Part shown: piece by piece, positions 4,589 to 6,840 of the stretch
Layout: each line of letters starts with the position of its first letter
Numbering within the stretch: position 1 is the stretch's first letter
Assembly (NCBI GenBank): GCA_017475875.1
Contig: JAFVET010000100.1
Coordinates: 1-7,836, forward strand
Direction: 5' to 3'
Origin: Candidatus Methanomethylophilaceae archaeon
Lineage (GTDB): Archaea > Thermoplasmatota > Thermoplasmata > Methanomassiliicoccales > Methanomethylophilaceae
Length of the DNA stretch: 7,836 nt
The notes under the pieces: model-generated
The model's input: the letters and a program-made list of their open reading frames with translations, nothing else
Databases searched by the model: none
Told to the model about the DNA's origin: nothing
Translations under genes and position numbers: made by a program

Positions 4589-5398
4589 TCACACCGATAT
4601 ATGGTGAATCGATTTTAACGTTATCCCGTCATAAAACGCGGAAAAACCGTATGCCGGATGTTGCCGTAGGGTCACACACGTATGGGATAAAGGCGCGATT
4701 CGACCGTATGCCGGGAGATTATGGGACACTGCCGCTTCGAAAGTAACCGGATCCAATATCATCATATGCCCATGACGAACGCATCGGACGTCACCGTTAC
4801 CGTGGAACCGCAACGTTCGCTTGCGATGGGTCGTCGGCACCACGGACACCCGGTCGGACCTGAACAACACCGATATTATCGATGTGACGTTGCGGTCCAG
4901 CTCCTTGGAGAAGGAATTGATCAGCAGCTCCTCCAACGCACCGGCCATCGACACGGTCGACAGCATCATCATGACGGTCCCGGAATCCATGAAGAGCAGC
5001 ATCACCGGTGCGACCTTCAACAGGAGCCCTGCGGCCTTGTTCGTCAGGGTGTGGAGCAGGGCGACCTGCCCGAAGCGGCAGAGTCCGATGCAGGCCGAGA
5101 CCGTCCTGGTGAGACAGATGGCGACGATCGCCCAGATCATCCACTCCTCCCACGGCAGCACGGGCAGCAGGACGGCGATGACCGCGACGATCACCAGGAA
5201 GTCCGCCATGCTGTCGAGCACCTCTCCGTGGGCCGTCCTGAGACCGTACCTCCGGGCCAGGTATCCGTCCAGAAAATCCGTCAGGGCGCAGAGGCCGAAG
5301 ACGACGAAGAACCCCAACCCGAGAGGCTAGGTGAAGAGCAGCGCCACCGCCCCGGCTATCCTGGATGCGCTTAATGCGTCCGGGACGAGCGGGTTCAT
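4589..5398 (-). CDS. CDP-alcohol phosphatidyltransferase with in-frame TAG at codon 24
   Basis: Integral membrane enzyme family that moves a phospho-alcohol head group from a CDP-linked substrate in lipid synthesis; the exact substrate cannot be told. The signature D-x2-D-G-x2-A-R-x8-G-x3-D-x3-D is complete (D41, D44, G45, A48, R49, G58, D62, D66), with several hydrophobic segments after it and a SKELDRN block near the usual C-terminus. ATG 5398 lies 6 nt after the helicase stop, so the genes are probably co-transcribed and coupled. The first 23 codons give an LSASR motif and the start of the first membrane helix as expected, then TAG (5327-5329) interrupts, and the frame resumes with PLGLGFFVVFG. 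R13 to D41 spans 28 residues, close to the family norm, so nothing is inserted or lost. A TTG at 5317 would drop the first helix. The frame also runs about 90 codons past the normal family end. Either pyrrolysine read-through, or a pseudogene. Confidence 0.75.
4594..4620 (-). promoter_or_regulatory. Probable promoter of the small coiled-coil gene
   Basis: On the minus strand CGTTAAAATCG (centre about 4615) lies some 25 nt before position 4590, giving a leader of about 10 nt before ATG 4579 that includes GTGAGG as a ribosome-binding site. CCATATATCGG (4594-4604) is more TATA-like in base content but too close to the ATG. The elements fall inside the nominal 3' end of the phosphatidyltransferase frame, which argues that this frame's tail is not really coding. 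Confidence 0.4.
4646..4714. repeat. 12-bp direct repeat pair
   Basis: ACCGTATGCCGG occurs at 4646-4657 and again at 4703-4714, 57 bases apart, with a partial CGTATG at 4679-4684. Both copies fall in the tail of the phosphatidyltransferase frame (read there as PAYG twice), which is probably non-coding. They could be regulator-binding sites upstream of the gene at 4579 or remnants of a small duplication. Confidence 0.5.
5327..5329 (-). other. In-frame amber codon, candidate pyrrolysine site
   Basis: TAG at codon 24 of the phosphatidyltransferase, counted from ATG 5398. Family-like sequence reads in the same frame on both sides. Single-base ancestors would include GAG (Glu) or AAG (Lys), and a charged residue followed by PL is plausible at this point in relatives (memory, not checked). 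Pyrrolysine insertion needs pylT and pylS elsewhere in the genome, which this window cannot show. Confidence 0.5.
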
Positions 5399-5404
5399 GC
5401 GAGA

Positions 5405-6817
5405 TCAGTCCTGGATCACTTTGACGGTGACGGCCTTGCCCTTGAACTTGACCTTGGGAAGGTCCTTGGTCATACGGCTGCCGAAGTCCTTGTGGACCTC
5501 CACGATCGACGTATCGGGACCGACCTGCACCTTTCCTATGGAGACCTCCCTTACCCTCACGCTCTTGATGATGAAGTCCGCCAGGGAGACCTTGCCGACA
5601 CCGTCGTTCTTGCCGAGGTTGACTTCGAACTTGCACATGCCGAAGACGTCGGAGATCTGGTCGTAGTCTATGACCTTCTTGATGGTGTCCTTCGAGCCCG
5701 GTTCGGATTCGGGGACGTCCCTCTTCTCGATTTCCATCCCGGTCCTGAGCTGGAACTCGCGGATGAGGTGCTCCTCCTCGGACGTCACGAACGACACCGC
5801 GGTGCCTTCCTTCCCGGCCCTTCCGGTCCTGCCGATCCTGTGGATGTAGGTGTCGATGTCGTCGGGCATGTCATAGTTGATGACGTAACTGATGTCGTCG
5901 ATGTCGAGTCCCCTGGCGGCGACGTCGGTTGCGATGAGCAGGTCGGTGACGTCGTTCCTGAAGTCCCTTATGACCTTCTCCCTCTTGACCTGGGGGAGGT
6001 CGCCGTGGATGGCCACGACCTTGTAGCCGTAATCGGTCAGCCTCTCATCGAGCATGTCGACCATCTTCTTGGTCTGACAGAATATGATGGCCTTCGGCTT
6101 GTCTATGTCGATGATCCTACAGAGGGCCCAGGACTTGTTCCTCCTCCCGACCGAGATGTAGTACTGCTTCGTGAGGTCGAGGACGATCTCGTCCTTGGAG
6201 ACAGAGACCTCCTTGGGGGACTTCATATAATCGAACGCCAGCTGCTTGACGTTCTCCTGCATCGTGGCGGAGAACAGCATCGTGTGGCGCTCAGAAGGCA
6301 TCGCCTTCAGTATGAACTCGATATCGTCTGTGAAACCCATGTCGAGCATGCGGTCCGCCTCGTCAAGGACGAGGGACCCTATCTTCGCGAGGTTCAGAAC
6401 CTTGCGGTTGATCATGTCCCTGACCCTTCCGGGCGTGCCCACCACGATGTCGCACCCCTGGGCGAGCTTCTTCACCTGCCCCTCGATGCTGGCACCTCCG
6501 TATATCGGGATGACCCTGTGGCCTGAATATTTGGAAAGCTTCGTGAGCTCCTCCGCCACCTGGTTCGCCAGCTCCCTGGTCGGGACCATTACTATGGCGG
6601 TCGGGACATCCGAACCGGATTCCGTCGTGCTGAGGAGGATCGAACCGTATGCGCCCGTCTTTCCCGTACCGGTCTGCGCCTGGGCGAACATGTCCTTTCC
6701 CTCGACGCCCAGCGGGACCGAGGCCTTCTGAATCGGGGTAGGGTCGGTCCAACCCATGTCGCCCATCGCTTTTGCTACGTCCTCGGCAATACCAAGACTG
6801 ATGAAATCGGAAATCAT
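5405..6817 (-). CDS. DEAD-box RNA helicase with DbpA-like C-terminal RNA-binding domain
   Basis: ATP-dependent RNA helicase that remodels structured RNA in the cytoplasm, typically in ribosome assembly, RNA decay or cold adaptation. Numbered from ATG 6817 (470 residues), every motif is intact: Q motif (F5 to Q30, GWTDPTPIQ), motif I AQTGTGKT (47-54), Ia PTREL (79-83), Ib TPGR (128-131), II DEAD (152-155), III SAT (183-185), IV AIIFCQT, V TDVAARGLD (from 297), VI HRIGRTGR (326-333). Residues about 395-470 (VNLGKNDGV, SVRVREVSIGKVQV, then VEVHKDF and KFKGKAVTVKV) resemble the RNA-binding domain of the DbpA/CsdA group. The frame could start at TTG 6826, but TAG lies just upstream and the ATG is the better start; the nearest G-rich stretch (GGG, 6830-6832) is a weak ribosome-binding site for either. 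It stops at TGA 5405-5407, 6 nt before the lipid gene. Family sure, substrate unknown; deaD/csdA-like. Confidence 0.95.
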   Translation of the reverse strand: MISDFISLGIAEDVAKAMGDMGWTDPTPIQKASVPLGVEGKDMFAQAQTGTGKTGAYGSILLSTTESGSDVPTAIVMVPTRELANQVAEELTKLSKYSGHRVIPIYGGASIEGQVKKLAQGCDIVVGTPGRVRDMINRKVLNLAKIGSLVLDEADRMLDMGFTDDIEFILKAMPSERHTMLFSATMQENVKQLAFDYMKSPKEVSVSKDEIVLDLTKQYYISVGRRNKSWALCRIIDIDKPKAIIFCQTKKMVDMLDERLTDYGYKVVAIHGDLPQVKREKVIRDFRNDVTDLLIATDVAARGLDIDDISYVINYDMPDDIDTYIHRIGRTGRAGKEGTAVSFVTSEEEHLIREFQLRTGMEIEKRDVPESEPGSKDTIKKVIDYDQISDVFGMCKFEVNLGKNDGVGKVSLADFIIKSVRVREVSIGKVQVGPDTSIVEVHKDFGSRMTKDLPKVKFKGKAVTVKVIQD

Positions 6818-6840
6818 CTTATTCAACTACCCGAGATTCA

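Follow-up and report, generated by a model that had tools for sequence, protein, structure and literature searches.

Probable reading of an in-frame UAG codon as pyrrolysine in a CDP-alcohol phosphatidyltransferase gene of a Methanomethylophilaceae archaeon

In the methylamine methyltransferases MtmB, MtbB and MttB, the UAG codon is conserved and the pyrrolysine that it encodes is catalytic. Pyrrolysine has reportedly also entered tRNA-His guanylyltransferase by neutral evolution, to judge by the title of the 2009 work of Heinemann et al., and a 2025 report is said to describe an archaeal code in which all TAG codons stand for pyrrolysine. For 'Candidatus Methanomethylophilus alvus', the parts of the paper that we draw on give a share of 1.6% for TAG stops and 16 predicted pyrrolysine proteins beyond the methyltransferases, including one enzyme that acts in archaeal phospholipid synthesis; its authors proposed that amber codons become stable mutations in a cell that decodes pyrrolysine (Borrel et al. 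2014, PMC4153887). The portions used of a paper on the rumen isolate ISO4-H5 report in-frame amber codons in 46 genes, which include two geranylgeranyl reductases of lipid synthesis, a nitrogenase gene and marker protein 8 (PMC5011839).

The window, meaning the whole stretch of DNA that was analysed, is one entire contig (C194) of 7,836 bases from a metagenome-assembled genome that is 76% complete and comprises 281 contigs with a total of 1.54 Mb. On its minus strand, 23 sense codons encoding MNPLVPDALSASRIAGAVALLFT lead from an ATG (5396..5398), the position at which relatives also start, to an in-frame TAG (5327..5329), which bears out the arrangement given in the initial annotation. Read through this TAG at codon 24, the gene has 269 codons (4592..5398, minus strand) and ends at a TGA (4589..4591). 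The catalytic motif DFLDGYLARRYGLRTAHGEVLDSMAD is indeed intact in the frame of the ATG, at residues 41-66 (5201..5278, minus strand), but its first Asp is residue 41 and the TAG is separated from it by 16 codons, not by 15 as had been counted. An upstream gene in the open reading frame list (5405..6826, minus strand), which we take from its sequence to encode a DEAD-box helicase-like protein, stops six bases before the ATG, and the two genes probably share one operon. A homologous gene adjoins the copy of one relative (locus L004) and matches Helicase_C and DbpA. Our reading is that the UAG at codon 24 is probably decoded as pyrrolysine, the codon being a private and nearly neutral change in a cell able to read UAG.

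The read-through protein can be assigned to the CDP-alcohol phosphatidyltransferases. It matches PF01066 over residues 5-150 with 59.8 bits (cut-off 22), and D41, D44, G45, A48, R49, G58, D62 and D66, which fit what we take to be the motif form of this family (D-x2-DG-x2-AR...G-x3-D-x3-D), are invariant in an alignment of 16 rows. This alignment sets the window protein beside 15 relatives, namely three database proteins and 12 loci of other genomes; these are 12 of the 14 loci L002-L015, less L014, which is cut by a contig start, and L010, in which the script found no motif. The window protein retains all 14 invariant columns, including R13, which lies upstream of the TAG and is also conserved at 90% or more among 64 proteins. 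Codon 24 is ungapped in the alignment, in agreement with the family-like spacing across the TAG that had been noted. Aligning orthologues across this codon had been proposed as a check, and none of the 15 relatives has a stop there: residue 24 is G in seven, E in four, T in two, P in one and Q in one. The notion that a UAG at this place is common to the relatives is thus rejected (0/15). In the closest relatives codon 24 encodes Gly, from which a change to TAG may take two steps. This lack of conservation makes the TAG look like a private mutation that the cell tolerates. The codon-usage score is coding-like on either side of the TAG (+0.32 and +0.25 per codon), and there is no further stop within the 154-codon core.

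A structure model built with the 64 aligned proteins has mean pLDDT values of 90-98 in blocks of residues 1-180 and of 38-61 from residue 181. Because its predicted helices span residues 5-20 and 28-51, residue 24 is predicted to lie in the loop that joins helices 1 and 2, rather than in the first membrane helix where the initial annotation had put it. Judged by title, the 20 highest Foldseek matches all belong to the family. The best is 7drj (probability 1.00), and the top entries are phosphatidylglycerophosphate synthase (7drj/7drk, E 2e-3 to 9e-3), with no match at E <= 0.001. Eight NCBIfam models for the PgsA, archaetidylserine synthase and archaetidylinositol phosphate synthase subtypes matched the protein, all below their cut-offs. 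The enzyme probably transfers the phosphatidyl-type group of an ether lipid to a polar alcohol.

The 3' end of the gene is irregular. Proteins of the relatives end at 176-192 residues, whereas the window frame has no stop there and continues to residue 269. Codon scores are coding-like up to residue 178 and negative from residue 179 onward, and the tail that runs past the family end comprises residues 184-269 (4592..4849, minus strand). At the density of stops in shifted frames, 85 codons would stay open by chance with a probability of about 0.09. The tail could stem from a lost stop, from an indel or from a fault in the assembly. It is the main mark against a healthy gene in the window and adds some weight to a lesion or a sequence error. 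In another part of the assembly, a frame for chorismate mutase-prephenate dehydrogenase (L302:3577-6591, plus strand) similarly lacks its stop and extends hundreds of codons beyond its last domain.

A search of the genome for the pyl genes, which had been proposed as a check, found pylT, pylS, pylB, pylC and pylD. They are spread over two contigs, with the break lying within pylS. Contig C84 contains the terminal part of pylS, which matches the PylS C-terminal family with 276 bits (cut-off 178), followed by pylB (436 bits), pylC (308) and pylD (192; cut-offs 348, 248 and 150, respectively), and it also bears a RamA-type corrinoid activase. A covariance model made from the tRNA-Pyl genes of six relatives has a single match, at C204:135-206 with 76.5 bits, and directly after it comes a frame that we take to resemble the start of PylS. 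The PylS N-terminal family TIGR03912 has no match in the genome; this does not weaken the case for the pyl system, since the C-terminal family is matched and the pyrrolysyl synthetase of this order is, in the sections of the source cited, a shortened form (PMC3941956). The genome's mtmB has one TAG inside a full family match, and the match of its mtbB (PF09505) likewise spans a TAG. Nothing was found that points to a changed release factor: aRF1 is cut before NIKS, and its remaining part has intact YxCxxxF and GGQ motifs. In G001, a related genome with in-frame TAGs, the aRF1 motif reads NIRS (locus L202), against NIKS in 26 other readable loci of relatives. Six genomes of the genus have a pylB-like gene with a terminal TAG (L018, L019, L023, L024, L026 and L040) and the next stop about 20 codons on, whereas the pylB of our genome ends in TGA. 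A link between pyrrolysine decoding and the output of pylB or pylC is possible in these six cases. The nearest named McrA sequences come from uncultured Methanomethylophilaceae and related MAGs, several with isolate names that mention ruminants; in an McrA tree our sequence falls with them in a group of 12 rows, within which its nearest sister is ambiguous. The searches turned up no other strain of this species.

Codon-usage scoring of open reading frames on 121 of the 281 contigs (635 kb, 41% of the genome, all of them whole except for 173 bases of one contig) yielded 525 closed frames, with TGA as the stop of 461, TAA of 42 and TAG of 22. Thirteen of the 22 TAG-ended frames continue in frame, 12 of them above the coding threshold and one (L137) on account of its family match. 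These 13 comprise mtmB, mtbB and 11 ordinary genes: DP2, CobN, ThiI, McrA, a precorrin-2 methyltransferase (CobI/CbiL), an LMWPc phosphatase-like protein, an M50 protease, a phosphoglycerate mutase, a nitrogenase-like protein, and two that are weakly typed (L066, with a sub-threshold PDDEXK match, and L123, without a family). The window gene, which came from a separate scan for short upstream parts, is the twelfth, so that at least 12 ordinary genes have an in-frame TAG on the 121 contigs sampled. The remaining nine of the 525 frames (1.7%) end in TAG without a clear continuation, and some of these may not be real genes. Seventeen frames with a continuation past TGA or TAA also exceeded the threshold; most were judged by eye to be separate neighbouring genes. 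UAG is probably read as pyrrolysine in about a dozen other ordinary genes of this host.

The UAG codons in mcrA and DP2 are the more surprising part of these findings. The assembly's only McrA match has an in-frame TAG (L139:745-747, plus strand, contig C92). The gene is truncated by the contig start, and a second mcrA copy may lie in the missing quarter of the genome. Searching 60 genomes, 48 of them with a match, gave a TAG in one of 49 matched places and no stop in the other 48. The site is glutamate in all 103 loci that cover it out of 108 given (GAG in 101, GAA in two), a count whose independent number is below 103 because certain genomes contributed a locus from each of two collections. 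The TAG is also the sole departure of this McrA from the columns that are invariant in 51 distinct relatives. In DP2 (L288:1374-4763, minus strand, contig C103) the TAG is residue 600, at which 12 of 12 relatives have methionine, and ATG to TAG requires two base changes.

The nine remaining TAG sites were compared in two to five genomes. The replaced residue is Q in two of two for thiI, E in three of three for LMWPc, Y in one for cobN, Y in one and F in three for cobI, and F in one and L in one for the nitrogenase-like gene. At the gpmA site M occurs in two genomes and Y in two solved structures shown. The alignment of the M50 protease was too poor at its site, and nothing was recovered at the sites of L066 and L123. 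Since Glu, Gln, Tyr, Met, Phe or Leu, and Gly are replaced, no single canonical residue fits the TAG sites. The ThiI stretch (L085:3431-4057, plus strand) is 99% identical to that of the related genome G017 (L325), whereas other genes compared are 43-68% identical to G017; either recent transfer or a mixed bin could lie behind this.

Internal stops of other kinds also occur. A beta-CASP gene (L291:3349-4644, minus strand) and a family-less gene (L131:2501-3430, plus strand) each have a probable internal TAA, and a TerB_N-like gene (L060:1582-3903, minus strand) has a probable internal TGA. We regard these three as probable lesions within the range of lesions, errors or readings of another kind. 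They overturned an earlier spectrum of 11 TAG in 11, which had assumed that there were no other internal stops. Given the genome's own codon usage, 59-63% of single-base nonsense changes yield TAG, and the 12 TAG among 15 internal stops in our sample have a P of 0.08-0.13. Adding the related genomes G001 and G017 gives 19 TAG of 23 (P 0.015-0.033), one of the 19 coming from a directed search. With about 60% TAG expected at random, the nonsense spectrum was rejected as a lone proof of recoding. By itself the spectrum is thus weak proof; the argument is carried by the pyl genes, by mtmB and mtbB, by mcrA, by the sites that lie two steps from TAG and by published precedents.

Related genomes were sampled at 62 loci (215 kb) of the same genus, with one locus (L022) from another family of the order; methylamine methyltransferase genes, recognized by eye, and the TAG-ended pylB genes were left out of the tally. 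In this sample, in-frame TAG codons interrupt ordinary genes in G001 (a helicase and pyrH) and in G017 (a nitroreductase). A further 60 kb of G001 added an LRR-type gene with an in-frame TAG, and a further 60 kb of G017 added marker protein 8, a family-less gene and, less surely, a site near the end of an ABC ATPase. A directed search showed that the nitrogenase-like gene of G001 also has a TAG, at a different place from that in our own nitrogenase-like gene. G001 has one probable internal TGA as well. An in-frame TAG in G008 (L192) was taken for an antisense artefact. About 190 kb from the other genomes contained no in-frame TAG, against 3.6 expected at the rate of our genome (P about 0.03). 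A survey of radical-SAM proteins in 14 genomes showed no stop among the matches listed; with too few codons per genome, it lends no support.

The initial annotation had left the choice between pyrrolysine read-through, a pseudogene and a sequence error. Read-through is now favoured by the pyl genes and by the TAG codons of mtmB, mtbB and the other ordinary genes, while the codon itself proved not to be conserved. The evidence against decoding includes the TAA and TGA lesions, the weak TAG excess, a private codon without a conserved role, the Gly of the closest relatives with its possible two steps to TAG, the run-on 3' end and the incompleteness of the draft. Were the TAG a nonsense mutation in a gene undergoing loss, translation would stop after 23 codons and the rest would be a young relic. 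The missing family stop with its non-coding-like tail fits such a history, as do the other probable TAA and TGA lesions in the assembly, and the gene is probably dispensable because 27 of 41 genomes have no match to it (E <= 0.001 needed). We nonetheless consider gene loss unlikely, given a 154-codon core that has acquired no other stop, 14 of 14 invariant columns kept and codon use that is coding-like on both sides of the TAG. The host also reads TAG in mtmB and mtbB, and in-frame TAGs occur in genes that are indispensable to a methanogen, such as mcrA. Restart of translation at a TTG past the TAG (5315..5317, minus strand), with UAG as a plain stop and a shortened working enzyme as the product, would agree with the 242-residue protein that a protein collection lists from this codon. 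That product would have neither the first helix nor R13, and the N-terminal part is present in 15 of 15 aligned relatives, so restart seems very improbable.

An error in the assembled bases or a mixture of strains at 5327-5329, with a sense codon in the living cell, is a distinctly unlikely source of the TAG. A draft as fragmented and incomplete as this one invites the suspicion, and the three probable TAA and TGA lesions add to it. Several TAG sites are one base from the replaced codon (Glu GAG, Gln CAG, Tyr), the thiI stretch that is 99% identical in another genome reads CAG, and our aRF1 has four odd residues at invariant columns against a mean of 1.5. However, the DP2 methionine is two changes from TAG, as the Gly of the closest relatives at the window site probably is, and at invariant columns our McrA has no odd residue besides the TAG and our PylS only one. 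G001 and G017, which are less fragmented than our assembly, have similar TAGs. A different suppressor tRNA with a CUA anticodon that inserts a canonical amino acid could be imagined for TAGs that lie mostly in ordinary genes and not in methylamine methyltransferases. It would be most improbable, since tRNA-Pyl is present, the replaced residues vary by gene and ARAGORN found no CUA tRNA on the 120 of our contigs scanned, which are the 121 sampled ones less C119.

Under pyrrolysine decoding, a mutation to UAG in a variable loop would have been close to neutral and would thus account for the private codon. PylB, PylC and PylD would make pyrrolysine, PylS would charge tRNA-Pyl(CUA) with it, and the ribosome would insert it at codon 24, perhaps with some termination. 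The product would be a CDP-alcohol phosphatidyltransferase of full length that carries pyrrolysine as residue 24. A wider proposal, that UAG is a general sense codon for pyrrolysine in this lineage and that McrA, DP2 and the lipid enzyme carry the residue, which is hence essential for life, is in our estimate evenly balanced between right and wrong. If it is true, the 22nd amino acid would be essential with or without the use of methylamines; if the mcrA case is true, methane formation itself would depend on pyrrolysine. The findings support the view that, where UAG is read constantly, in-frame UAG codons accumulate in ordinary genes by drift, after which the cell can hardly shed its pyrrolysine machinery. 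They also show that such proteins are truncated by gene callers, the window gene being catalogued as the 242 residues past the TAG.

A search of limited scope found no earlier report of the window gene or of mcrA as a UAG gene. The window gene is a further case of the kind already published for the relatives 'Ca. M. alvus' and ISO4-H5. Like 'Ca. M. alvus', the host belongs to the order Methanomassiliicoccales, and TAG stops, 1.6% there by the excerpts used, make up at most 1.7% (9/525) here. The two differ in that the genes concerned here are others (the CDP-alcohol phosphatidyltransferase, mcrA, DP2 and more) and in that only part of a draft genome is covered. With ISO4-H5 the likeness extends to a TAG in our own nitrogenase-like gene and in marker protein 8 of G017, whereas mcrA, DP2 and the CDP-alcohol phosphatidyltransferase are not named among its amber genes in the portions of that paper used. 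MtmB, MtbB and MttB share with the window gene the in-frame UAG and the same pyl genes for its decoding, but the UAG of the window gene is private and probably without a role. The reported case of tRNA-His guanylyltransferase would likewise be one of neutral pyrrolysine in an ordinary enzyme, although enzyme and organism differ. TAG as a sense codon in ordinary genes would also be common to our genome and to the archaeal code said to read every TAG as pyrrolysine, from which ours may differ in that up to 9 of 525 frames are still ended by TAG.
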